Below, in pieces: positions 13,845 to 62,739 of a stretch of DNA of 64,000 bases. The DNA lies in assembly GCF_003002895.1 (NCBI RefSeq), contig NZ_PVTI01000016.1, positions 1 through 64,000 of the forward strand, written 5' to 3'. Every line of letters starts with the position of its first letter. Positions within the stretch are counted from its first letter, which is position 1. Both the position numbers and the translations under genes were made by a program. Source of the stretch: Knoellia remsis. GTDB lineage: Bacteria; Actinomycetota; Actinomycetes; Actinomycetales; Dermatophilaceae. The notes beneath the pieces are model-generated. The model was not told the origin of the DNA, ran no database searches, and was given only the letters and a program-made list of their open reading frames with translations.

Positions 13845-13870
13845 GCGCGTGTCGAGTCGTCTACAGGTCG

Positions 13871-14007
13871 GGTGAGTCGCCCCGTTCTGGGTGAGTCGCA
13901 CTCTTCTGGGTGAGTCGCACTCTTCTGGGTGAGTTGCCCCTCCATGAAGGGACGACTCACCCAGAAGGGGACGGCTCGAGCTCGGGCCGCCCGCCAGCGC
14001 TCGGGTC
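13871..14007. repeat. GGTGAGTCG repeat block, copy 1
   Basis: Four tandem 19-bp units (starts 13871, 13890, 13909, 13928; GGTGAGTCGCACTCTTCTG) followed by an inverted copy (CGACTCACCCAGAA, about 13954-13967) and a tail GACGGCTCGAGCTCGGGCC. From 13909 on, about 100 bp are repeated at 14477-14588, so the two blocks flank the small HTH gene in direct orientation. Confidence 0.8.
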
Positions 14008-14476: not shown

Positions 14477-14588
14477 TCGTGAGTCGCACTCTTCTGGGTG
14501 AGTCGCCCCTCGATGGAGGGACGACTCACCCAGAAAGGGACGGCTCGAGCTCGGGCCGCCTCCCAGCGGCCCGGGTCAGTCCACCAGG
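14477..14588. repeat. GGTGAGTCG repeat block, copy 2
   Basis: About 105 bp matching 13909-14007 closely: GTGAGTCGCACTCTTCTGGG, then the inverted CGACTCACCCAGAAAGGGAC and the same GGCTCGAGCTCGGGCC tail. It holds one GTGAGTCG unit fewer than copy 1. The rest of the gap (14301-14476) shows only the palindrome at 14365. Confidence 0.8.
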
Positions 14589-15029: not shown

Positions 15030-17189
15030 TCAGTCGGCGGGGACGGTGCTCAGCGTGAGGCCCGCGAGCGGGTCCGCGGGGGTCCCGCCGGTCACCGAGG
15101 TGCAGCGGCGCGGCTCCACGTCCGGTCCCGGCGTTGCGGGAGTCTCGATGCGCGTCCCGTTGACGAGACTGACGTCGTCGTATGCCGGCCGCCCCTCGAT
15201 GACGTTGCGGAACCGGTAGCGGGTCACCGAGGTCAGCTCGCACGACTCCCCGAAGCTCAGCACGTCGAAGGCGGACGGCTGCCCGACCAGCTCCTCCCCG
15301 TCCTCGCTGCCGACGAAGTGGGTGAGCGGCCCGCCGCCGGTGAACGTGCCCGCCTGGATGCGGTTCCCCTCGAGGTCCGGCGTGTGCATGTGCCCGTTCG
15401 CGGCGACATCGGCGCGCGGCACTCCCTGGACGGCCCACGGTTCGTGCGACACGAGCAGGTCGAGTGCCGGCTGCTCCGCGTGGGCCGCGACGAACGCCTC
15501 CTTCGCGGGCTGCTGCTTGTCCCGGCTCCGCTTGCCGTCGTCACCGAACCAGCGCGGGTCGTTGAACCCGCCGATCCGTATGCCGCCCGCGTCCACCGTG
15601 GTGTAGCTCGCCGAGTCGGGTTGCAGCAGAACGACGTTGGGGATGCGCGCCATCCGGGTGAGGAGAGCCGTGTCGGTGGCGGACGTCGCGTCGTGGTTGC
15701 CCCGCACGAAGAGGTAGGGCACAGGAAGCGAGGCGATGCCGGTGAACATGCCGGACGCCTCTCCCTCGGCCACCGTCCCGAAGTTCACGAAGTCTCCGGT
15801 GTCGACGACGAGGTCGATGTCCTCCTCCTCGATGATCGTGCGCATCAGGGAGTACTGGTTGCCGGCGTGCAGGTCGGACACGAGGAGCACGCGCAGTGCG
15901 ACGGGTTGGCCGAGCTCGGTCGGGGCGTACTTGTCCTGCAGCGCCGACGACAGTGCCATGAGGTTGCGCAGGTAGGGGGTGACCTGAGCCGTGCGGGCCT
16001 CGACGTCGGAGAGCAGCGACTGGTTGCGCTGCACGGTGCCGAGAACCCCGGTCGAGACGAACTCATGCTGACGCTCCGGCCGGTAGGTCTGCCAGATGCC
16101 GAGTCCCGTTGCGCCGCAGGCGAGTGCCCACGCGACCCCTGCTCCCACCATCGACTGCCAGCGTGGCCGCCGGCGCCTCGCCAGTGCCACCACACCCACG
16201 CCCGCGGCGGCCACGACGAGCGCGCCGACCGCGAACCGCAGCCCCACGTCCCGTGCGACGTCGGCGATGGCGGCGTTGAGCTCGAGCGGTCCGGGCTGGA
16301 GGTCGCTGACCGAGACACTGGGACGGCTGAGCATCTCGGTGATCGACTCCTTGACGGCAGGCGTCGCCTCGATGCCCGGCGCGAACCCGGTGAAGCCCAC
16401 GTCGATGTCGCCGAAGAGGGTGCGCGCCGTGAGTCGGGTCGAGTCCCGTGGGTCCATCGACAGCTGCACCTGCGCGGAGTAGAGCCGCGTCTCGGCGGTG
16501 GCGGGGGCGAGCCGGGTGGCCGCGGCACCACCGGCGGCGCAGGCTGCGGCAAGACCGAGGACGGCGAGTATGCCGCGTGCGCGCCTTCCGCCGACGCGGT
16601 GCCCGAGTGCCCACCAGACGCTCACTGCCGAGACGAACGGCCACAGGACCAACGCCCCGGCGACGATGCGCTCGTGCGCGCCGAACGGCATACCGGCGCG
16701 GTTGCCCACGAGCAGCGAGGCAACGAGCGCGAGGAGGACGACGGACGCCGGACGCGCGACCCGCGGACGCAGCAGCCCACGACCCGTGGTGGCATCGGTG
16801 AGCGCGGGCCACGCCGCGAGCAGTAGGAAGGACAGCCCGGCGACGACCGTGTGCGGCAGCGAACCCTCGGCACGCGAGGGCAGCGGCACGAGGGCCACGC
16901 CGACCGTCGCGACCCCCGCGGCGGCAAGGATCGCGCGCCCCGCCCGCCGCAGACCGGGCAGGAGGAGCGCCGTCCCGACGTGCGCGAGGCCGGTGACGAC
17001 GAGGGCGACCGACATGATCCAGCGGTGCGGCGTCTCCCGGGCGGCGAGCGCGCTGATCGACTCCCGCACCGCGTCGTAGCCAGCCGGTTGCTGCATGGCC
17101 GCCCACGTCCAGCCACCGACGAGCGCGATGGCCGCGACGAGCGAGGTCAGCACCGCTGCGCGCGGGAGAGTCGGGGTCCGTCGAGCCAT
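15030..17189 (-). CDS. Membrane metallophosphoesterase with N-terminal DUF998-like domain
   Basis: 719 aa. The first ~210 residues resemble a DUF998 membrane domain (GYDAVRESISALAARETPHR, several hydrophobic segments), then two further membrane segments around 220 and 320, and an externally placed calcineurin-like phosphoesterase from about 430: VSDLHAGN, VDTGDFVNFG, RGNHDATS, SHEPW and NGHMHTPD supply the metal ligands. A membrane-anchored phosphodiesterase of unknown substrate. TAGGGT sits 6 nt before ATG, overlapping the -10 of the divergent gene: probable leaderless transcript from a shared promoter. Confidence 0.87.
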   Translation of the reverse strand: MARRTPTLPRAAVLTSLVAAIALVGGWTWAAMQQPAGYDAVRESISALAARETPHRWIMSVALVVTGLAHVGTALLLPGLRRAGRAILAAAGVATVGVALVPLPSRAEGSLPHTVVAGLSFLLLAAWPALTDATTGRGLLRPRVARPASVVLLALVASLLVGNRAGMPFGAHERIVAGALVLWPFVSAVSVWWALGHRVGGRRARGILAVLGLAAACAAGGAAATRLAPATAETRLYSAQVQLSMDPRDSTRLTARTLFGDIDVGFTGFAPGIEATPAVKESITEMLSRPSVSVSDLQPGPLELNAAIADVARDVGLRFAVGALVVAAAGVGVVALARRRRPRWQSMVGAGVAWALACGATGLGIWQTYRPERQHEFVSTGVLGTVQRNQSLLSDVEARTAQVTPYLRNLMALSSALQDKYAPTELGQPVALRVLLVSDLHAGNQYSLMRTIIEEEDIDLVVDTGDFVNFGTVAEGEASGMFTGIASLPVPYLFVRGNHDATSATDTALLTRMARIPNVVLLQPDSASYTTVDAGGIRIGGFNDPRWFGDDGKRSRDKQQPAKEAFVAAHAEQPALDLLVSHEPWAVQGVPRADVAANGHMHTPDLEGNRIQAGTFTGGGPLTHFVGSEDGEELVGQPSAFDVLSFGESCELTSVTRYRFRNVIEGRPAYDDVSLVNGTRIETPATPGPDVEPRRCTSVTGGTPADPLAGLTLSTVPAD

Positions 17190-22604: not shown

Positions 22605-22664
22605 ACTTATTGCGCACAGTTCGCCTGCGAACGCCGTCGAGCATGCGAACTGTGCGCAATCAGT
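22605..22664. repeat. Modular palindrome (ACTTATTGCGCA head), first of a pair
   Basis: Arms 22605-22624 and 22645-22664 (ACTTATTGCGCACAGTTCGC and its near-perfect complement ending CAATCAGT) around a 20-nt loop; lies 33 bp upstream of bpa. Confidence 0.8.
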
Positions 22665-22666
22665 CC

Positions 22667-22717
22667 GACCTATTGCGCGGACGTCGCACGGGGAGATGCG
22701 AACTGTGCGCAATCAGT
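22667..22717. repeat. Modular palindrome, second of a pair
   Basis: Left arm GACCTATTGCGC is degenerate; the right arm (22698-22717) repeats the first element's right arm exactly 53 bp downstream and includes the TGA stop of the MDMPI-like gene. Confidence 0.7.
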
Positions 22718-31869: not shown

Positions 31870-33216
31870 ATGCCTTCGACCCCGTCGTCCGTGTCCCGTC
31901 GCGCCCTGATCGGGGGCGCCGCCGCGTCGACCCTCGCCACCGCGTCGGTCGCCTCCGCCTCGTCCGCGTATGCCGGGTCGTCCCGGTCCGTGCGGTCGTC
32001 ACGGTCCTCGCGGTCCTCCCGCCCGCGGGGGAACGTCATCCTCCTCGCGCTGGACGGGTTCGACCGCGAGTACCTCGACGGCCGGGTCGCCTTGCCGCAC
32101 CTCGAGTCGCTGCTGCGGCGTGGCTCGCTGTCCCGCAGCACCGGCGTCATGACCTCGATCACGAACCCGTCGTGGACGTCGGTGGCCTGCGGCACCTACC
32201 CCGACCGAACCAAGAACGCGGCCTACTGGTTCGACACCGCGGCCGGTGTGGCACGCGGCCAGTCGCGCGACAGCGCCGTCGAGGGGATCGGGCAGTCGCT
32301 GCGCCGGCAGGGCCGGACGATCGGGTCGTCGCAGTGGTTCATCCTCCAGGGCAAGGGCGTCGACTACGGCGACCCGCAGGGGCTCTACACCCAGCCGGGA
32401 GGGCGGATCGACGCCCGCGTCGACGACGCCATCGCGATGCTCACCGGACAACCGGTCGACAGTGGCGGCACGATCATGACGCTGCCGGAGCCGCCGGACT
32501 TCCTTGCGGTCTACTCCAGCGACGTCGACGGCGACGGCCACTCGTGGGGTCCGAGCGACCCGCGTCTGCTCGACACGCTGCGTGAGACGGACGCCGCCAT
32601 CGGCAGGCTCATCACCGCGGTCAAGGACGCCGACCTCTGGGGTCGGACCACGTGGCTCGTCACCGCCGACCACGGCATGAGCAACTGGCGGATCCCGTTG
32701 GGGAGCACGGCGATCGAGCGCCTCGCGGCTGCCGGCTTCCGGGCCGAGTACGTCGGGAGTGGTGGTCGTGTGAGCAGCCCGGACACGGACGTCGTCTTCG
32801 TCGGTGGAGGAAGCATCGCGTCGGTGCACCTGCTCGGGGAGCTCGCGGGCTCCGCGTCGGCGACGGCCCGGGTGGCGGAGGTGTTCGCGGGCATCGAGGG
32901 GGTGAGCGGCGTCTTCACCAAGGACGACCAACGGGCGATGCGGATGGCGCCGCAGTACGGCGAGCTCGTCGTCGAGACCCGTGAGCCGTACGCGCTCTTC
33001 GTCACCGTCCCCGCCGAGGCGTTCGACGGGCGGCACGGGGGTCGGGCCGAACTCGACATCCCGCTCATCCTCTCGGGCCACCGGGTCCGACCCGGCGTCG
33101 CGCCACGCTCCCCGCGACACGTCGACCTCGCCGCGACGATCAGCCACCTCCTCGGCGTCGCCCCGCCGGCCGCCAGCGAGGGCCGAGTCCTGCGCGAGGC
33201 CCTCCTCCCCGACTGA
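31870..33216 (+). CDS. Secreted alkaline phosphatase-superfamily phosphodiesterase
   Basis: 448 aa, Tat-like leader (SRRALIGGAAASTLATASVA). Alkaline phosphatase/nucleotide pyrophosphatase fold: LLALDGFDREYL metal site, TNPSWTSVACGTYPDRT with the catalytic threonine region, VYSSDVDGDGHSWGP, TADHGMSNW and a C-terminal LSGHRVRP. Probably hydrolyses nucleotide or phospholipid diesters. TAGCGT (31857-31862) 7 nt before ATG suggests a leaderless transcript. Start picked for the signal peptide. Its TGA lies in a palindromic repeat. Confidence 0.88.
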   Translation: MPSTPSSVSRRALIGGAAASTLATASVASASSAYAGSSRSVRSSRSSRSSRPRGNVILLALDGFDREYLDGRVALPHLESLLRRGSLSRSTGVMTSITNPSWTSVACGTYPDRTKNAAYWFDTAAGVARGQSRDSAVEGIGQSLRRQGRTIGSSQWFILQGKGVDYGDPQGLYTQPGGRIDARVDDAIAMLTGQPVDSGGTIMTLPEPPDFLAVYSSDVDGDGHSWGPSDPRLLDTLRETDAAIGRLITAVKDADLWGRTTWLVTADHGMSNWRIPLGSTAIERLAAAGFRAEYVGSGGRVSSPDTDVVFVGGGSIASVHLLGELAGSASATARVAEVFAGIEGVSGVFTKDDQRAMRMAPQYGELVVETREPYALFVTVPAEAFDGRHGGRAELDIPLILSGHRVRPGVAPRSPRHVDLAATISHLLGVAPPAASEGRVLREALLPD

Positions 33217-33263
33217 TTGCGCACAGTTCGCACAGAGGCATGCGAACTGTGCGCAATAAGTCG
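33211..33263. repeat. Modular palindrome (ACTGATTGCGCA head) at phosphatase stop codon
   Basis: Arms 33211-33231 and 33242-33263 (GACTGATTGCGCACAGTTCG and a complement ending AATAAGTCG). The gene's TGA stop lies inside the left arm. Confidence 0.8.
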
Positions 33264-36924: not shown

Positions 36925-36988
36925 CGACTTATTGCGCACAGTTCGCCTGCTCGCTGGCGCTCGCACGCGAACTGTGCGCAATAAGTCG
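36925..36988. repeat. Modular palindrome (CGACTTATTGCGCA head) between marR and ABC exporter
   Basis: Perfect 22-bp arms (36925-36946 and 36967-36988) with a 20-nt loop, inner arm CAGTTCGC. Remainder of the 36868-37182 gap: two 22-bp direct repeats GGxAGGTGGGCACxYGGGAA at about 37051 and 37081, an operator-like dyad at 37132 and the exporter ribosome site. Confidence 0.85.
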
Positions 36989-37182: not shown

Positions 37183-39114
37183 ATGACTGCGACAGTACCT
37201 GACGCTCCCCGGGACCCCCAGTCCCGCCTGCCCGGTGGTCGAGGCATCGGTGCCGGTCGCGGCGGCGGGGGTCCGATGCAGATCGACCCGGCCGACCGCG
37301 CCCAGCTCGACATCGCGCCCGTGCCCCTGCGGCGGGTGACGGCGCTCTTCCGCGGCTTCGGCCGCCAGATCGGCGTCGTCACCGCGATCATCGCTGCGAC
37401 GTCCGTCATCTCCATGGCCCAGCCGTTCCTCGTGCGCGAGGTCGTCGACGTCGCCATCCCGCAGCAGGACGTGCGCCTGCTCCTCCTTGCCGGCGGCGCG
37501 ATGGTCGCCGTCGCCGCCGCGACCCAGGTGCTCGGCGTGATCCAGACCTGGATGTCGACCGGGGTCGGCCAGCGGGTCATGCACCGGCTGCGCACCGACC
37601 TTTTCACGCACCTGCAGCGCCAGTCGCTCGGCTTCTTCACCCGCACCCGCGCGGGCGAGGTCCAGTCGCGACTGACGAACGACATCAACGCGATGCAGGG
37701 CGTCGTCACGACGACCGCGACGTCGATCGCGTCGAACCTCACGACCGCCGTCGCCACCGCCGTCGCGATGGTCGCCCTGTCGTGGCGGCTCTCGCTGCTC
37801 TCGCTCCTCGTCATCCCGCCGGCCGTGTGGCTGACCCGACGCGTCGCGCTCATCCGCCGCGAGGTCACCGCCCGTCAGCAGTCCCGCCGCGCCGACCTCA
37901 ACGTCCAGATCGAGGAGGGCCTGTCCGTCTCCGGCGTGCGCCTCTCCAAGACCCTCGGCGCCGGTCGCCGGCACGCCGAACGGTTCGCCGCCACGTCGAG
38001 CGACCTCGTCGACCTCGAGCTGCGCTCACAGCTCGCCGGTCGCTGGCGGATGGCCACGATGCAGGTCGTCTTCGCGGCCATCCCCGCGCTCATCTACCTC
38101 ATCGCCGGGCTGCCGGCGACGTCCGGCGGAATGACGATCGGGACGCTCATCGCCTTCACCGGGCTGCAGGCGTCGATCTTCCGCCCGCTCATGGGGCTGC
38201 TCAACGTCGGTGCCCAGTGGGTGTCCTCGATGGCCCTGTTCTCAAGGGTTTTCGAGTACCTCGACCTCATCCCCGACGTCGCCGCACCGGCCGCGCCGGT
38301 CGCCCTCGACCCCGCGCGGGTGCGCGGCGAGGTGCGCTTCGAGGACGTGACGTTCGCGTATGCCGGTGAGTCGGCTCCCGCTGTCGCCGCCGTGTCCGCG
38401 GTGGTCCCGGCCGGTGGCTCGCTCGCGCTCGTCGGGCACACCGGGTCGGGCAAGTCGACGCTCGCCTCACTCGTCGCGCGCCTCCACGACCCCACGTCGG
38501 GGCGGGTGCTCATCGACGGTGTCGACGTGCGTGACCTCGACCCCGAGGCGCTCGCGCAGGTCGTCGGGGTCGTGTCGCAGGAGACCTACCTCGTGCACGC
38601 GTCGATCCGCGAGAACCTCCTCCTCGCCGCGCCAGACGCCGCGGAGGTCGACCTGTGGCGAGCCCTCGCGGCGGCGCAGGTCGCCGACCTCGTGGCCTCC
38701 CTCCCCGACGGGCTCGACACCGTCGTGGGGGCGCGCGGTCACCGGTTCTCCGGCGGTGAGCAGCAGCGTCTCGCGATCGCCCGGACGATCCTGCGCGACC
38801 CGCGGGTGCTCGTGCTCGACGAGGCCACGAGCGCTCTCGACAACGACACCGAGCGGGCCGTGCAGCACGCCCTCGACGAGCTCGTGAAGGGTCGCACGAC
38901 GATCACCATCGCGCACCGGCTCTCGACCGTGCGGGACGCCGACGAGATCGCCGTCCTCGACCACGGCCGGATCGTCGAGCGGGGTACGCACGACGAGCTC
39001 GTCGGCCTGGGTGGCACCTACGCCGCCCTCGCCGGAGCCGGCCCGGCACGCGAGCCCGAAGGCGAGCGCGGGTCCCACGGTCCGCGTGGGCCGGCATACG
39101 ACGCCGTCGCCTGA
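37183..39114 (+). CDS. ABC multidrug exporter, half-transporter (membrane + ATPase fused)
   Basis: 643 aa: six-helix type I exporter domain (about 45-330) then the ATPase: Walker A GHTGSGKST, Q-loop VVSQETYLVHAS, signature FSGGEQQRLAIA, Walker B VLVLDEATSALD, H-loop IAHRLSTVRDADE. Acts as homodimer or with a partner. Start at 37183 after AAGGGAGAGCCC. Drug, lipid or peptide substrate unknown. Next to a marR gene and a separate MMPL exporter, making an efflux-rich stretch. Confidence 0.93.
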   Translation: MTATVPDAPRDPQSRLPGGRGIGAGRGGGGPMQIDPADRAQLDIAPVPLRRVTALFRGFGRQIGVVTAIIAATSVISMAQPFLVREVVDVAIPQQDVRLLLLAGGAMVAVAAATQVLGVIQTWMSTGVGQRVMHRLRTDLFTHLQRQSLGFFTRTRAGEVQSRLTNDINAMQGVVTTTATSIASNLTTAVATAVAMVALSWRLSLLSLLVIPPAVWLTRRVALIRREVTARQQSRRADLNVQIEEGLSVSGVRLSKTLGAGRRHAERFAATSSDLVDLELRSQLAGRWRMATMQVVFAAIPALIYLIAGLPATSGGMTIGTLIAFTGLQASIFRPLMGLLNVGAQWVSSMALFSRVFEYLDLIPDVAAPAAPVALDPARVRGEVRFEDVTFAYAGESAPAVAAVSAVVPAGGSLALVGHTGSGKSTLASLVARLHDPTSGRVLIDGVDVRDLDPEALAQVVGVVSQETYLVHASIRENLLLAAPDAAEVDLWRALAAAQVADLVASLPDGLDTVVGARGHRFSGGEQQRLAIARTILRDPRVLVLDEATSALDNDTERAVQHALDELVKGRTTITIAHRLSTVRDADEIAVLDHGRIVERGTHDELVGLGGTYAALAGAGPAREPEGERGSHGPRGPAYDAVA

Positions 39115-39131
39115 CGCCCCGCGTCCCGAAG

Positions 39132-39230
39132 TCACCCAATTGGACGCTTGGGGACGCGCTGGCTGTCCCGACGTCACCCAATTGGACGCTCGGGGACGCG
39201 CTGGCTGTCCCGAAGTCACCCAATTGGACG
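39132..39230. repeat. TCACCCAATTGGACG array, three copies at 42-bp period
   Basis: TCACCCAATTGGACG at 39132, 39174 and 39216, exactly 42 bp apart, intervening sequence GCTTGGGGACGCGCTGGCTG-like. Located between convergent exporter genes (stops at 39114 and 39246). Core CCAATTGG is itself palindromic. Confidence 0.9.
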
Positions 39231-39245
39231 CGTCGGGACGCGCGG

Positions 39246-41873
39246 TCAGTGGGCGGGGGAGAGCTCGCGGTCGTCGTCCGGGGTCGTCGCCGGCTCACCA
39301 TCGTCGGGCTCAGTCTCGTCGTCGGTGTCGTATGCCGTGTCCTCCTCGCGCGGCGACGTCTCGTCGCGCTCCAGGCGGGCACGCAGCTTCGTGCCCTCGA
39401 CGTCGAGGTCCGGCAGGATGCGGTCGAGCCAGCGCGGGATCCACCACGCGCGGTCGCCGAGCAGGTGCAGCACGGCCGGCGTCAACGTCATCCGGACGAG
39501 GAACGCGTCGACGGCGACACCGACCGCGAGGCCGAGACCCATCGGCCGGATCATCGACAGGTGGGCGAAGACGAAGCCCGCGAAGACCGCGATCATGATG
39601 AGCGCCGCGGCGACGACGACCCGGTAGCCCTGCCGGAAGCCGGTGCGGATCGCGTCGCGGCTGGACTGGCCGTGGGCGCGCGCCTCGTGCATGCCGGAGA
39701 CGAGGAACATCTGGTAGTCCATCGCCAGCCCGAAGAGGACGCCGATGAGCAGCGTCGGCATGAACGGCATGATCGGCCCGGGACGACTCACCTGGAGCAG
39801 GTCGCCGAGGAAGCCCCATTGGTAGACCGCGACGACCGATCCGAAGCCCGCGGCGACCGAGAGCAGGAAACCGGCGGTCGCGACGAGCGGCACGAGGACC
39901 GAGCGGAACACCGCCATGAGCAGGAGCAGGGAGAGTCCGACGACGAGCGCGACATAGAGCGGCAGGGCGTCGGCGAGGCGCTGCGAGATCTCGATGTTCG
40001 CAACGGTTTGGCCGGTGATGCCGAGCTCGACGCCCTCGGGCATCCGGTCGGCGAGGGCGTTCATCGTCGAGACGAGCTCGACCGTCGACTCGCTCGTCGG
40101 ACCCTCGCTCGGAACGACCTGGAAGGCAAGGGTGTCGCGGTCCTCGCTCACCCCGAACGGGACGACGCGCTCGACGCCGACGAGGTTGTAGAGGTCGCGG
40201 CCGACCTCGGCCTGCTTCTGCGGGACCTCGGCCGCGGTGAGCGGCTCGTCGAAGGAGGCGACGGCGACGATGGGACCGTTGGCGCCGGGGCCGAAGTCCT
40301 TCTCGATCGTGACGTATGAATGGAACGCGCTCGAGTCCTTCGGCTCGCTGCTGCCGTCGGGCAGGCCGAGGCGGAGCGAGAAGGCGGGGATCGCGAGCAG
40401 CGCGATGGCGACGACGGTCGCGGCGATGGCGCGCCACGGGTGGTTCGTCACGAGGACGGCCCAGCGTCCCGAGCCACGGCGCGAGCCGGTCGGGGTGGGG
40501 TCGTCGTCAGTGGTCGCGGTGGCCTGCGCGGCCTCGTGCTTGCGCCAGGTGCGCTTCGAGATGACCCGCCGGCCCATGAGGCGCAGGACGGCCGGCGCCA
40601 CGGTGAGCGCGACGAGAACCGTCATGGCGACGGTCCCTGCGGCGACGAGACCCATCTGCGCGAGGATCGGCAGGCCCGAGACGGTGAGCGCGGACAGAGC
40701 GATGATGACCGTCGTACCGGCGACGACGACCGCGTTGCCGGCCGTGCCGGTGGCGAGCCCGATCGAGTGGTGCAGCTCCATCCCGTCGAGCAGCTGCTGG
40801 CGGTGCCGGTTCACGATGAACAGTGCGTAGTCGATGCCGACCGCGAGGCCGAGCATGAGCGCGAGGGCCGGCGTCATCGAGTTCATGTCGAAGAACGCCG
40901 TGGCGGTCATGGCCGCGAGGAGGCCGGCGCCGACGCCGACGAGCGCGACGAGGAGCGGCAGGCCCGCGGCGATGAGGCTGCCGAGCATGACGAGCAGGAC
41001 CACGGCGGCGATGCCGAGGCCGATGACCTCGCCGATGCCGACGATGCTGCGGGTCTGGAGGATGTCGGCGTTGTAGTCGACGCGCAGGCCGGAGTCCTCG
41101 AGCTGGGTGCCGATCGCGGGCACCTCGGCGCGCACCTCGGGGGAGAGCTGGGCGATCGCGTCGTCGTACTGGATCTGCAGCATGACGGTGCTGCCGTCCT
41201 CGCTGACGAACCGCAGGCCCTCGCTCATCCCGAGGAGGCTCTGACCCTGGCTGACCTGCTTGCGCGCGTCGGCGATCTTCGCGTCGCCGTCGTCGAGCTG
41301 GGCCTTGATCTCGGCGTTGCCCTTCTCGCGGGCGGGGATCTCGACGCGCAGCTCGCGGGCGCGCTGGCTGTCACCGTCGCCGGCCTTCTCGAGGGCGGCG
41401 AGCTCCTTGCGGGCGGCGGCGAGGTCCTTCTGGCCCTGGTCGTAGAGCCAATGGCCTTGCTGCAGCTTGTAGCTCTGCTCCTCGAGCTGCTTGCGCCCGT
41501 CGGCGAGCTTGCCCCGTGAGTCGTCGAGCTCGGCCTGCGTCTCGAAGGGGTTCATCACCGAGGTGACCCGCGGCGCCTTCTCCCAGTCGGCGAGGGTGCG
41601 CTCGATGGCGGCGCGCTGGGCGGGGGTGATGGGGCCGTTCTCGTTCTCGATGGTGATCGTGCCGATGCCGCCGGCGGAGGCGGGGATCTCCTCGCCGAGG
41701 TCGTCGATGACCTTCTGGAACTGGGCGCCCGGGATGCTGATCGCCGAGCTGGGCGGTGAGGAGAAGGCGGCCATCGCGCCCCCGAGACCGACGAGGACGA
41801 CGAGCCAGGTGACGAGGGTGAGCCAAGCGTGCTTGGCGGTGAACCGGCCGAGCCGGTAGAGGAACGTGGCCAT
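39246..41873 (-). CDS. MMPL/RND-superfamily exporter
   Basis: 875 aa, twelve membrane segments in two halves with two large external loops; the first loop holds a long coiled coil (TQAELDDSRGKLADGRKQLE... QVSQGQSLLG). Signature: GLAVGIDYALFIVNRHR in the first half and GLAMDYQMFLVSGMHEARA in the second (the proton-relay Asp-Tyr pair). Exports lipids or drugs driven by proton motive force. Two nt downstream of its TetR regulator, so co-transcribed. C-terminal tail acidic (TDDETEPDDGEP). Confidence 0.93.
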   Translation of the reverse strand: MATFLYRLGRFTAKHAWLTLVTWLVVLVGLGGAMAAFSSPPSSAISIPGAQFQKVIDDLGEEIPASAGGIGTITIENENGPITPAQRAAIERTLADWEKAPRVTSVMNPFETQAELDDSRGKLADGRKQLEEQSYKLQQGHWLYDQGQKDLAAARKELAALEKAGDGDSQRARELRVEIPAREKGNAEIKAQLDDGDAKIADARKQVSQGQSLLGMSEGLRFVSEDGSTVMLQIQYDDAIAQLSPEVRAEVPAIGTQLEDSGLRVDYNADILQTRSIVGIGEVIGLGIAAVVLLVMLGSLIAAGLPLLVALVGVGAGLLAAMTATAFFDMNSMTPALALMLGLAVGIDYALFIVNRHRQQLLDGMELHHSIGLATGTAGNAVVVAGTTVIIALSALTVSGLPILAQMGLVAAGTVAMTVLVALTVAPAVLRLMGRRVISKRTWRKHEAAQATATTDDDPTPTGSRRGSGRWAVLVTNHPWRAIAATVVAIALLAIPAFSLRLGLPDGSSEPKDSSAFHSYVTIEKDFGPGANGPIVAVASFDEPLTAAEVPQKQAEVGRDLYNLVGVERVVPFGVSEDRDTLAFQVVPSEGPTSESTVELVSTMNALADRMPEGVELGITGQTVANIEISQRLADALPLYVALVVGLSLLLLMAVFRSVLVPLVATAGFLLSVAAGFGSVVAVYQWGFLGDLLQVSRPGPIMPFMPTLLIGVLFGLAMDYQMFLVSGMHEARAHGQSSRDAIRTGFRQGYRVVVAAALIMIAVFAGFVFAHLSMIRPMGLGLAVGVAVDAFLVRMTLTPAVLHLLGDRAWWIPRWLDRILPDLDVEGTKLRARLERDETSPREEDTAYDTDDETEPDDGEPATTPDDDRELSPAH

Positions 41874-52213: not shown

Positions 52214-52269
52214 CCGACTTATTGCGCAGAAATCGCATGCCCGCATGCGATTTCTGCGCAATAAGTCGG
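52214..52269. repeat. Modular palindrome (CCGACTTATTGCGCA head) after hutU
   Basis: Perfect 27-bp arms (52214-52240, 52243-52269) with a 2-nt centre; same outer arm as at 36925 but different inner arm (GAAATCGCATGC). 12 bp after the hutU stop: plausible terminator. Confidence 0.85.
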
Positions 52270-55816: not shown

Positions 55817-57147
55817 CGACGACCTACTGGTGCGAACACGCCCAGCTCCCCGACAAGGTCCACGCCGGCGTGCGAATCACGACGGACGGTGGCCGGATCA
55901 CCGAGGTGATGCCGCGAACAACCGCTCGGGAGAACGACATCCGCCTGCGCGGCGTCACCCTCCCGGGTCTGGCGAACGCGCACAGCCACGCGTTCCATCG
56001 GATGCTGCGTGGGCGCACCCACGGTGACGGTGGCAACTTCTGGACGTGGCGGGACCAGATGTATGCCGTGACCGAGCAGCTCAACCCGGACACCTACTTC
56101 GCCCTCGCGAGAGGGGTTTTCGCGGAGATGCTCGCCGCGGGATACACCGTTGTCGGTGAGTTCCACTACCTCCATCACGATGTCGGCGGGCGCCCGTACT
56201 CCGACCCCAACGCCATGGGCGCCGCACTCATCGCCGCGGCCGAGGAGGTTGGGATCCGGCTCACGCTGCTCGACACGTGCTACCTCGCGGGCGGCCTGTC
56301 CTCGGACGGGCACCTACCGCTGGACGAGGTGCAGCAGCGGTTCTCCGACGGGTCTGTCGAGGCCTGGGCCGCCCGGGTCCGTGAGCTGCGAGACAGCGAC
56401 CTCGTGCGCATCGGCGCAGCCGCGCATTCGGTGCGCGCGCTCACGGGCGCCCAGCTCGCGGAGTTCGCGTCGGCGGTGAGCGCGCTCGGGGAGCGTCCGG
56501 TGCACGCGCACGTCAGCGAGCAGGTCGCGGAGAACATCACGACGGAGATGGTCTACGGCGCAAGCCCGGTCGAGCACCTGGCTGATGCGGGGCTGCTGCG
56601 TGAGGGCTTCACCGCCGTCCATGCCACGCACTTGTCGGACATCGACCTCGAGCTCATGGGGTGCTCCGGTGCGGCGGCGTGCTTCTGTCCGACGACCGAG
56701 CGCGACCTCGCCGACGGCATCGGCCCGGCGTGCGAGCTGGCCGGACAAGGGGTGTCGATCAGTCTCGGGTCGGACCAGCACGCCGTCATCGACCCGTTCG
56801 AGGAGCTGCGCGGTATCGAGATGCACGAGCGGCTCAAGAGTCACGAGCGAGGCAGGTTCGGCGTCGCGGACCTGCTCGAGATGGCGACGAGCGCCGGCTA
56901 CCGCAGTCTCGGCTGGGACGGCGGCGAGCTGCGTGTGGGTCAGCTCGCGGACTTCGTGTCGGTGCGCACCGACAGCCGCCGCACGGGTGGGGTGGCCCCG
57001 GGCCAGGTGGTGTTCGCCGCGACCGGTGCCGATGTCAGGGAGGTCGTCGTCGGGGGAGAGCGGGTGGTGTCGGCCGGCGTGCACCGTCTCGGACCCGTCG
57101 ACGACGTCGTGGCAGAAGCCATTGCGGCAGTGAGGAGCACATCATGA
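55813..57147 (+). CDS. hutF: Formimidoylglutamate deiminase
   Basis: 444 aa metal-dependent amidohydrolase that turns N-formimidoylglutamate into N-formylglutamate plus ammonia. Metal motif [60 protein letters not shown] overlaps the upstream hydrolase stop; its own stop overlaps the first of two hutI-type start codons. Confidence 0.95.
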
Positions 57148-57189
57148 CCAGCACCGTCCACGCCCAATGACCAGCACCGTCCACGCCCA
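57144..57189 (+). repeat. Duplicated hutI start region with eight-codon mini-ORF
   Basis: A 23-bp unit starting ATGACCAGCACCGTCC is repeated (57144-57166, 57167-57189). The first ATG opens MTSTVHAQ, stopping at a TGA (57168-57170) that overlaps the hutI ATG at 57167; the first ATG overlaps the hutF stop. Confidence 0.85.
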
Positions 57190-60262: not shown

Positions 60263-62620
60263 GTGACGTCCAGCCAGACCTCCACGCCCGAGCCGCCGGC
60301 GTCCAGCACGCACGCTGGCGGTTCGGGCGGGCCCCGCAGGGCCGACGAGGCCGAACGTGCCGGCGGCCGGGTCGTCCTCGACGGAGTGACCTGGCGCCCG
60401 TACGGTCGGCGCGAACCGGTCCTGCGCGACGTCACGCTCACCCTCGAACCGGGAGAGCGCGTGCTGCTTGCCGGACCCAGCGGGGCCGGCAAGTCCACGC
60501 TGCTCCGTGCAATGGCGGGTCTGCTCGAGACCGCCGACGCGGGCGAGCTCAGCGGCTCGGTCACCCTCGACGGGCACGCGCCGGGAACGCGCGCCGGCGA
60601 GGTCGGTCTCGTCCTCCAAGAGCCGGGCGCCGGGATCGTCGCCTCGACGGTCGGGCGCGACGTCGCCTTCGGTCTCGAGAACGTCGCGCTGCCGCGGGCC
60701 GACATGGAACCGGCGATCCGCGCCGCGCTCGCGGCCGTCGGCCTCGACAAGCCGCTCGACACCCCGACCAGTGCACTCTCCGGCGGCGAGACCCAGCGCC
60801 TCGCCCTCGCGGGCGCGCTCGCACTCACCCCGTCGGTCCTCCTCCTCGACGAGCCCACGGCGATGCTCGACCCCGGCCACGCGGCTCAGGTGCGCGCGAG
60901 CGTGGAAGGCGCGCTCGCGGCATACCCGGTCACGACCGTGGTCGTCGAGCACCTCATCGGGCCGTGGGTGGGTCTCGTCGACCGGATGCTCGTCCTCGAC
61001 GACGACGGGCGGCTCGTCGCGGACGGGCCGGTGCGTGAGGTGCTCGCGGCCGAGCGACAGCGACTCCTCGACATGGGCATCTGGGTGCCCGGCGAGCCGA
61101 ACCCCACCCCGCTCACCACCGTGAAAAACTCACCCAATTGGACGGATGCCGCCACAGGAAGCGGGAAAAACTCACCCAATTGGACGGTCGAGGGCGAGCA
61201 GTCCGTCGCCGCCTCTGCCCTGACGATCGAGCGCACGACGCGGCTCGTCGACGGCTCGACCCGCACCCAGCCGGCGGCGGTCCTGGGAGAGCCGCTGTCA
61301 CCGGCGGCGGCCACCTCGACCGCGCTCGTCGGACCCAGTGGCTCCGGCAAGTCCACCGTCCTGCTCGCCTTCGCGGGCGCCCTCACCCCGGCGCAGGGGG
61401 AGGTCCGAGCGGGTGACCGACCCGTCGCCGACCTCACCTCCCGCGAGCTCGCGGCAGCCCTCGGGTGGGTCCCCCAGTGGTCGAGCTCGACGATCGTCGC
61501 CTCGACGGTCCTCGACGAGGTGCTCGTCGCGTCGCGGGCCCTCGGCGAGGACGGGGACGAACGGGTCGCGGAGGCACGGGCACTGCTCGCTGTCCTCGGG
61601 CTGGACGAGCTCGAGGGGGCTGATCCGCGGGAGCTCTCCGGCGGCGAGCAGCGCCGGCTCGCGATCGCCGCCGCGATCCTGCACCGGCCGCCGCTGCTCC
61701 TGCTCGACGAGCCCACGGTCGGGCAGGACCGGCACACCTGGGCTGCGGTCGTCGGGCTGCTGCGGGACTACCGCGAGGCCGGCGGGGCGATCGTCGTCTC
61801 CACGCACGACGCCGCACTCATCGAGCGTGCACAGACCGTCGTCGAGCTCGCGCCGCCACCCCGGCCGCCGGAGCCGCCGGCCACCCAGCGGCTGCTCGCG
61901 GCCCGCGCCGGCCCGCTCGCGCTCCTCGCCGGGGCGGTGCTCGCGATCCCGGCGGGCATCATTCCGGACCACTGGAGCGTGTCCCTGACCGTCCTCGCAG
62001 TCCAGTTCGTGCTCGCCGTCGTGGCGCTCACGGCGGTGGGTCGGGGGAAGCGGCCGAGCGGGCGGGTACGACGCGTGCTGTTCCGCATGTGTCCCGGAGC
62101 CCTCGGTGCCCTCTCGGTCGGCTGGTCGACCTGGCTGCTCGGCGGGAACGACCTCACCACCGCGATCACGGCCGCGTTGCGCGTGCTCATCATCGTCTTC
62201 CCCTCCGCGGTGCTGCTGCCGCTCGTCGACCCCGACCGGCTGGGCGACCACCTCGCCCAGCGGCTGCGTCTGCCCGCCCGGCCCGTCGTGGCGGTCGCCG
62301 CGGCGCTGCAACGGGTGCACACGTTCGGTCAGGTATGGACCGAGATCGGGCTCGCCCGGCGGGTGCGGGGCGTCGACGGATGGCGGCCCGTGCCGCTCGT
62401 CCGGCACCTCGCCGTCGTGACGTTCGGGCTGCTCGTGCGGACGTTGCGGCTCGCGGCCGACCTCGCCGTCGCGATGGACGCCCGCGGGTTCGCGACGGCG
62501 GCGCGGCGGACGTGGTTCGCGGTGGCGCCGTGGCGCTGGCCGGACACGCTCGTCGTGCTCGCCTCCCTGCTGCCCATCGCCGTTGCCGTCGTGGCCCCGG
62601 CCCTGCTCACTCGTCCCTAA
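60263..62620 (+). CDS. Fused ECF ATPase-ATPase-EcfT energising protein
   Basis: 785 aa, YkoD and YkoC in one chain. First ATPase (~35-270): LLAGPSGAGKST, LSGGETQRLAL, LLLDEPTAMLD. Second (~320-530): ALVGPSGSGKST, LSGGEQRRLAIA, LLLDEPTVGQD. From ~545, EcfT membrane domain with coupling segments (RRVRGVDGWR, DLAVAMDARGF). Linker between ATPases contains KNSPNWT twice, encoded by copies of a 42-bp repeat seen elsewhere between genes. GTG start at 60263, 8 bp after the ykoE stop; same riboswitch-led operon. Confidence 0.93.
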   Translation: MTSSQTSTPEPPASSTHAGGSGGPRRADEAERAGGRVVLDGVTWRPYGRREPVLRDVTLTLEPGERVLLAGPSGAGKSTLLRAMAGLLETADAGELSGSVTLDGHAPGTRAGEVGLVLQEPGAGIVASTVGRDVAFGLENVALPRADMEPAIRAALAAVGLDKPLDTPTSALSGGETQRLALAGALALTPSVLLLDEPTAMLDPGHAAQVRASVEGALAAYPVTTVVVEHLIGPWVGLVDRMLVLDDDGRLVADGPVREVLAAERQRLLDMGIWVPGEPNPTPLTTVKNSPNWTDAATGSGKNSPNWTVEGEQSVAASALTIERTTRLVDGSTRTQPAAVLGEPLSPAAATSTALVGPSGSGKSTVLLAFAGALTPAQGEVRAGDRPVADLTSRELAAALGWVPQWSSSTIVASTVLDEVLVASRALGEDGDERVAEARALLAVLGLDELEGADPRELSGGEQRRLAIAAAILHRPPLLLLDEPTVGQDRHTWAAVVGLLRDYREAGGAIVVSTHDAALIERAQTVVELAPPPRPPEPPATQRLLAARAGPLALLAGAVLAIPAGIIPDHWSVSLTVLAVQFVLAVVALTAVGRGKRPSGRVRRVLFRMCPGALGALSVGWSTWLLGGNDLTTAITAALRVLIIVFPSAVLLPLVDPDRLGDHLAQRLRLPARPVVAVAAALQRVHTFGQVWTEIGLARRVRGVDGWRPVPLVRHLAVVTFGLLVRTLRLAADLAVAMDARGFATAARRTWFAVAPWRWPDTLVVLASLLPIAVAVVAPALLTRP
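61129..61186. repeat. CTCACCCAATTGGACG pair inside the ECF gene, 42-bp period
   Basis: Copies at 61129 and 61171, 42 bp apart, same spacing as the intergenic array at 39132-39230. In frame, encoding KNSPNWT in the inter-ATPase linker. Confidence 0.9.
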
Positions 62621-62622
62621 CT

Positions 62623-62690
62623 GTCCAATTGGGTGAGCTCGGGACGGGTTGCTGGCAGGGCCGGTGTCCCCAACTGTCCAATTGGGTGAG
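62623..62690. repeat. GTCCAATTGGGTGAG pair after the ECF gene, 53-bp period
   Basis: Inverse-orientation copies at 62623 and 62676 immediately after the TAA stop (62618-62620), each followed by CTCGGGACGGG. Confidence 0.9.
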
Positions 62691-62739
62691 CTCGGGACGG
62701 GCGGGAATGCCCGGAGCGGGCGGCATACTTGCACCCGAC

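Follow-up and report, generated by a model that had tools for sequence, protein, structure and literature searches.

A palindromic repeat family of Knoellia with in-frame copies in the linker of an ATPase fusion protein

The fusion gene and its linker repeats

The window analysed here, a stretch of 64,000 nucleotides from the 3.57 Mb draft genome of Knoellia remsis, carries near its end a fusion gene (60263-62620, +) whose product combines two ABC ATPase domains (PF00005 twice) with an EcfT/CbiQ membrane domain (PF02361), an arrangement of the YkoD-YkoC type. Upstream in the same ECF operon lies a gene for a YkoE-like substrate component (PF09819; 59599-60255, +), and Rfam places a TPP riboswitch (RF00059; 59417-59519, +) 5' of both genes. 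On account of the two ATPase and CbiQ/EcfT domains, the YkoE-like gene and the riboswitch, the protein is most likely a thiamine-type ECF transporter component in which YkoD and YkoC are fused. Where two genes of the window join, a perfect 23-bp duplication (ATGACCAGCACCGTCCACGCCCA) is present at 57144-57189.

The linker joining both ATPase domains contains two exact copies of CTCACCCAATTGGACG (61129-61144 and 61171-61186, +) with a period of 42 bp, and frame 60263-62620 translates the pair as KNSPNWT twice (...TTVKNSPNWTDAATGSGKNSPNWTVEG...), just as an earlier sequence-only reading of this locus had described. Aligning the copies showed that the repeated unit is 33 bp long, not 42 bp. The first linker unit (61121-61153, +) consists of a variant left arm, GTGAAAAAC, and the core TCACCCAATTGGAC, without a matching right arm, and encodes VKNSPNWTDAA; the second (61163-61195, +), made of GGGAAAAAC and the core, starts 42 bp past the first and encodes GKNSPNWTVEG. 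Both variant arms recur elsewhere in K. remsis, mostly in the copy that opens an array.

Two reverse copies of CTCACCCAATTGGACG (62622-62637 and 62675-62690, period 53) are found past the stop of the gene, as had been noted; the first reverse unit, GTCCCGAGCTCACCCAATTGGACAGTTAGGGAC (62613-62645, -), encloses the stop codon TAA of the fusion gene (62618-62620), and the second (62666-62698, -) follows 3' of it. A further array of three units (39123-39155, 39165-39197 and 39207-39239, all +) occupies the gap between the convergent genes 37276-39114 (+) and 39246-41873 (-), with three one-mismatch copies of CTCACCCAATTGGACG at 39131-39230 (+). Its period is also 42 bp, an agreement that had been taken to connect it with the linker pair; the figure holds for both arrays, but the match is due to chance, as spacing within arrays ranges genome-wide from 27 to >100 bp and the spacers of the two arrays are unrelated. 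In all, the window gave 8 matches to CTCACCCAATTGGACG, against 0.34 expected from dinucleotide shuffles; the match at 15311, with 3 mismatches, is a chance one and not a copy of the family.

The linker measures 54 residues in the fusion protein; the nine relatives for which it was measured have 37-45 residues, with a median of 40. Its net growth relative to this median is thus 14 residues, half of the insert of about 28 residues that had been proposed and exactly one 42-bp period, which makes a local duplication probable for one step of the growth; part of the former linker may have given way to the first copy. KNSPNWT is missing from each of the 16 orthologues aligned, which come from eight congeners and from other members of the family, and by this comparison the pair is specific to K. 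remsis among the species compared. The linker diverges among relatives to the point that the empty site of the fusion cannot be aligned base by base. In the AlphaFold model of the fusion (mean pLDDT 77.9), residues 267-292 score below 50; our own mapping places them at window positions 61121-61195. The repeat-encoded segment is therefore predicted to be disordered, part of the drop reflecting a segment covered by no relative.

Structure, spread and position of the repeat unit

Alignment of 114 copies from K. remsis and 142 from K. sinensis defines the unit as a 33-bp palindrome, GTCCCGAAC-TCACCCAATTGGACG-GTTnGGGAC, which in K. sinensis often reads GTACCGAAC. Its 9-bp inverted arms, GTCCCGAAC and GTTnGGGAC, are 15 nt apart and flank a conserved 14-nt word, the core TCACCCAATTGGAC, whose positions are conserved at 91-100% in K. 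remsis and 88-100% in K. sinensis, the arms being looser. Folding energies are -17.5 kcal/mol for one unit alone (z -3.7) and -61 kcal/mol for an inverted pair taken from K. sinensis (z -9.5). Units occur as singles, as head-to-tail arrays and as inverted pairs forming long hairpins; direct arrays prevail in K. remsis, and K. sinensis and other congeners have many inverted pairs, spaced at about 45 bp. Spacers are homogeneous within arrays, and the unit is open in five of the six reading frames.

The family is dispersed throughout two genomes. The exact 14-mer TCACCCAATTGGAC is present 116 times in K. sinensis (KCTC 19936) and 101 times in K. remsis, where some arrays recur at two contig ends and distinct copies number about 85. 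It occurs five times in K. subterranea, three times in strain HTCC2649 and never in the other five Knoellia genomes, and a reversed-pattern control found no match in any of the nine, which are mostly drafts. Searching these genomes for a 25-mer with up to 3 mismatches returned 139 copies in K. remsis, 158 in K. sinensis, then 9, 7 and 1, and none in the remaining four. Among 84,980 species, the left part of the unit was matched exactly in Knoellia and HTCC2649, plus three single chance-like matches. The two species rich in TCACCCAATTGGAC, K. remsis and K. sinensis, are not sisters.

The 47 arrays of K. remsis, placed relative to genes called with our own codon-usage caller, comprise 14 in convergent gaps, 11 in tandem gaps, 3 in divergent gaps, 6 within genes and 13 at contig edges. 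The corresponding numbers in K. sinensis are 18, 19, 2, 6 and 3, one of the six intragenic sites (position 1902 of its locus) being rejected as a chance near-match. Convergent gaps are enriched in arrays compared with the window (p 0.0008), coding sequence is strongly avoided, and sense arrays with an upstream gene mostly begin 3-35 nt past its stop codon. No T-run follows the repeat hairpins. No Rfam family was found at the repeat sites, the only matches in the window being the TPP riboswitch and ASdes (RF01781; 20223-20290), listed in Rfam as a tuberculosis sRNA.

Apart from the fusion, five proteins of K. remsis host in-frame copies: an ABC exporter, with four copies at a period of 54, as well as a second ABC exporter, a GGT-like enzyme, a TIM-barrel protein and an AMP-binding protein. 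In K. sinensis the hosts are FAH and CoxG, together with the GGT-like enzyme, the second ABC exporter and the TIM-barrel protein already named for K. remsis. The readings SPNW, TQLD, THPIG, VQLGE and SNWVS represent all five open frames, and the sixth (PIG-stop) is met only at C-termini. Antisense copies inside genes also exist. All seven periods inside genes (42, 54, 54, 54, 66, 75 and 75) are divisible by three, versus 51 of the 143 outside (Fisher p 0.001); the coding periods come from five arrays, and counting each array once gives p ~0.006. Since every coding period is a multiple of three and all five frames are used, selection seems to keep the frame and not a particular peptide.

Other repeats are found in the window. 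A second palindromic family, CGACTTATTGCGCACAGTTCGC...GCGAACTGTGCGCAATAAGTCG, lies at 22605-22712, 33210-33263, 36925-36988 and 52215-52268; all nine Knoellia genomes contain it, in 21-131 copies each, many of them in inverted pairs with a distance of about 62 bp, and in places a copy extends over the predicted start or end of a gene. A third type is a 19-bp tandem repeat, CGACTCACCCAGAAGAGTG, located between genes at 13870-13962 and 14490-14535. Moreover, GTATGCCGTCCG is over-represented, with 14 places in the window (e.g. 4965, 27121, 43669 and 59534), and is also part of the spacer in many repeat arrays of 64-68 bp.

Shared sites and turnover between species

Of the 47 K. remsis arrays, seven coincide with an array of K. 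sinensis and eight lie at places where that species has none; the remaining arrays matched none of the K. sinensis array loci compared. Sharing is wider at particular sites. The linker of the ABC exporter carries a repeat-like in-frame insert in all nine Knoellia species, drawn from different families, and this site is a natural record of repeat turnover. The GGT-like enzyme has an insert in four species. The letters inserted at these two sites are AACTCGCCAATTCC in genomes G001-G003, CTCACCAATTCCC in G004 and CGACTKATTGC in K. subterranea and G008. These two in-frame sites are old ones that species share, so that invasion is both recent and ancient. Copy numbers also vary with the repeat type: ACTCRCCAATTCCC has 44 copies in G001 and 10 in G002, and CGACTKATTGCS has 21-131 in each of the nine Knoellia genomes.

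Directly 3' of the fusion gene, a repeat or palindrome is present in seven of the nine species, its core being typical of the species. Seven palindromes, from six fusion-gene sites and one other K. subterranea junction, show compensatory change in 15 of 27 pairs. This is not proof of an RNA function, as it is expected when both arms copy one local repeat type. Inheritance combined with concerted change would likewise account for some sites being shared between species.

Origin of the repeats and relation to known systems

The absence of KNSPNWT from every orthologue aligned refutes the view that the segment has long belonged to the linker or serves a function there. A simple tandem duplication that had nothing to do with the intergenic copies would explain a net gain of exactly one period, but the core is identical at about 100 other places versus none for the reversed-pattern controls, leaving this account of the pair, in either form, with hardly any credit. 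A stronger competitor holds that the repeats are functional 3'-end elements, either terminators or mRNA-protecting hairpins, maintained by selection and homogenised by gene conversion, the in-frame copies being rare strays. The position of most sense arrays just past a stop, the enrichment in convergent gaps, the palindromes behind the fusion gene in most species and the compensatory pairs all agree with it. However, the hairpins lack a T-run, the core is conserved more than the stem within a genome, some 85% of sites are not the same in two congeners, terminators would not be expected to form long tandem arrays or to lie antisense within genes, and the compensatory pairs would arise anyway from arms copying one family. 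We consider this explanation rather unlikely.

Neisseria dRS3 repeats are integrase targets of phages, and the core of the Knoellia unit could likewise be an integrase target or the site of a DNA-binding protein, with arrays as site clusters that spread passively. A core conserved throughout while the arms drift, and which includes the palindrome CCAATTGG, is what such a site would look like. Yet the congeners differ in core letters, and no unit was found on phage or viral contigs, plasmid records giving only 21-base chance-like matches (Ensifer), so that carriage by plasmid or phage was also set aside. This makes a binding or integrase site highly improbable.

We favour, as the probable explanation, a REP/REPIN-like non-autonomous family of Knoellia, without RAYT, that invades tolerated coding linkers, the fusion pair being a species-specific case. 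An enzyme recognising the core or the hairpin would copy units in trans to new sites, where they would then multiply locally via slippage or recombination, which the homogeneous spacers within arrays recall. Most surviving copies would be those that do little harm, placed immediately after a stop codon or in a convergent gap; a smaller share would settle in flexible protein linkers, any of the five open frames being tolerated if the period is a multiple of three. Active transposition and neutrality of the inserts are implied by this scheme. The proposal of the sequence-only reading, a spreading element entering tolerant linkers, is thus partly borne out by the genome-wide dispersal, the orthologues without insert, the predicted disorder and the in-frame copies in two species, its movement being deduced from presence and absence. 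The target-site duplications that it had suggested looking for were not visible at the three better-aligned insertions (GGT-like, ABC exporter and AMP-binding sites), where the inserts hold extra non-repeat bases.

As to the mobilising enzyme, RAYT was rejected: Y1_Tnp (PF01797) had no match in any of the nine Knoellia genomes, with positive controls. A mobiliser gene bracketed by arrays was also discarded, as seven array-rich stretches, read by eye, contained ordinary metabolism, regulation and transport genes and one DUF559-like nuclease. A bolder version, which we put forward as a tentative possibility, is a REP system with a non-RAYT mobiliser and a core that shifts between species (TCACCCAATTGGAC, CTCRCCAATTCCC, CGTCCAATAGGAC, CGACTKATTGCS), in which orthologous sites, including the linker occupied in all nine species, would have been repeatedly rewritten to the local type.

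With its 33 bp, about 100 copies and intergenic location near gene ends, the unit corresponds to the general description of REPs (palindromes of 20-40 bp, high copy number, intergenic near gene ends). It shares with the GTAG REPs and REPINs of Pseudomonas and E. coli, which have a RAYT, the short palindromes, inverted pairs and tandem clusters, the many types per genus and the siting behind genes, but it ends in GTCCC..GGGAC, lacks GTAG, and RAYT is absent from all nine genomes. CGTC-tagged REPs, which include RPE-4/6 and Neisseria dRS3 but list no actinobacterial family, have 8-9 bp stems starting with AT pairs, 4-5 bp loops and CCA tails (Di Nocera 2013). The resemblance lies in the CGTC (or TGTC) start, seen as CGTCCCGA/TGTCCCGA in most K. 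remsis copies (K. sinensis has mostly CGTACCGA), in the lack of a dedicated transposase among what was found, and in the position close behind genes, between convergent genes and sometimes within genes; in contrast, the Knoellia arms start with GTCCC, 15 nt separate them and there is no CCA tail. MITEs, defined by terminal inverted repeats of 15-30 bp and a target-site duplication, differ in that no duplication was seen at the aligned insertions.

Rickettsia palindromic elements (RPE-1, RPE-4, RPE-6) occur in frame in many unrelated genes whose homologues are without them (PMC3733652; PMC10969869), and the Knoellia unit behaves in the same way. The likeness is one of description: the RPE-1 type is about 150 bp long versus 33 bp for the Knoellia unit, which is mostly found in intergenic arrays of a high-GC actinobacterium.

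With the Knoellia repeat, an already known kind of genome parasite gains a new example from the actinobacteria. In-frame palindromes are best known from Rickettsia, whose reduced genome offered a possible excuse; Knoellia is a free-living, gene-dense, high-GC actinobacterium of the soil with in-frame repeats open in five of six frames. The absence of RAYT raises the question of what copies the repeats, and the repeat type that differs by species at shared sites makes concerted rewriting versus re-insertion testable.
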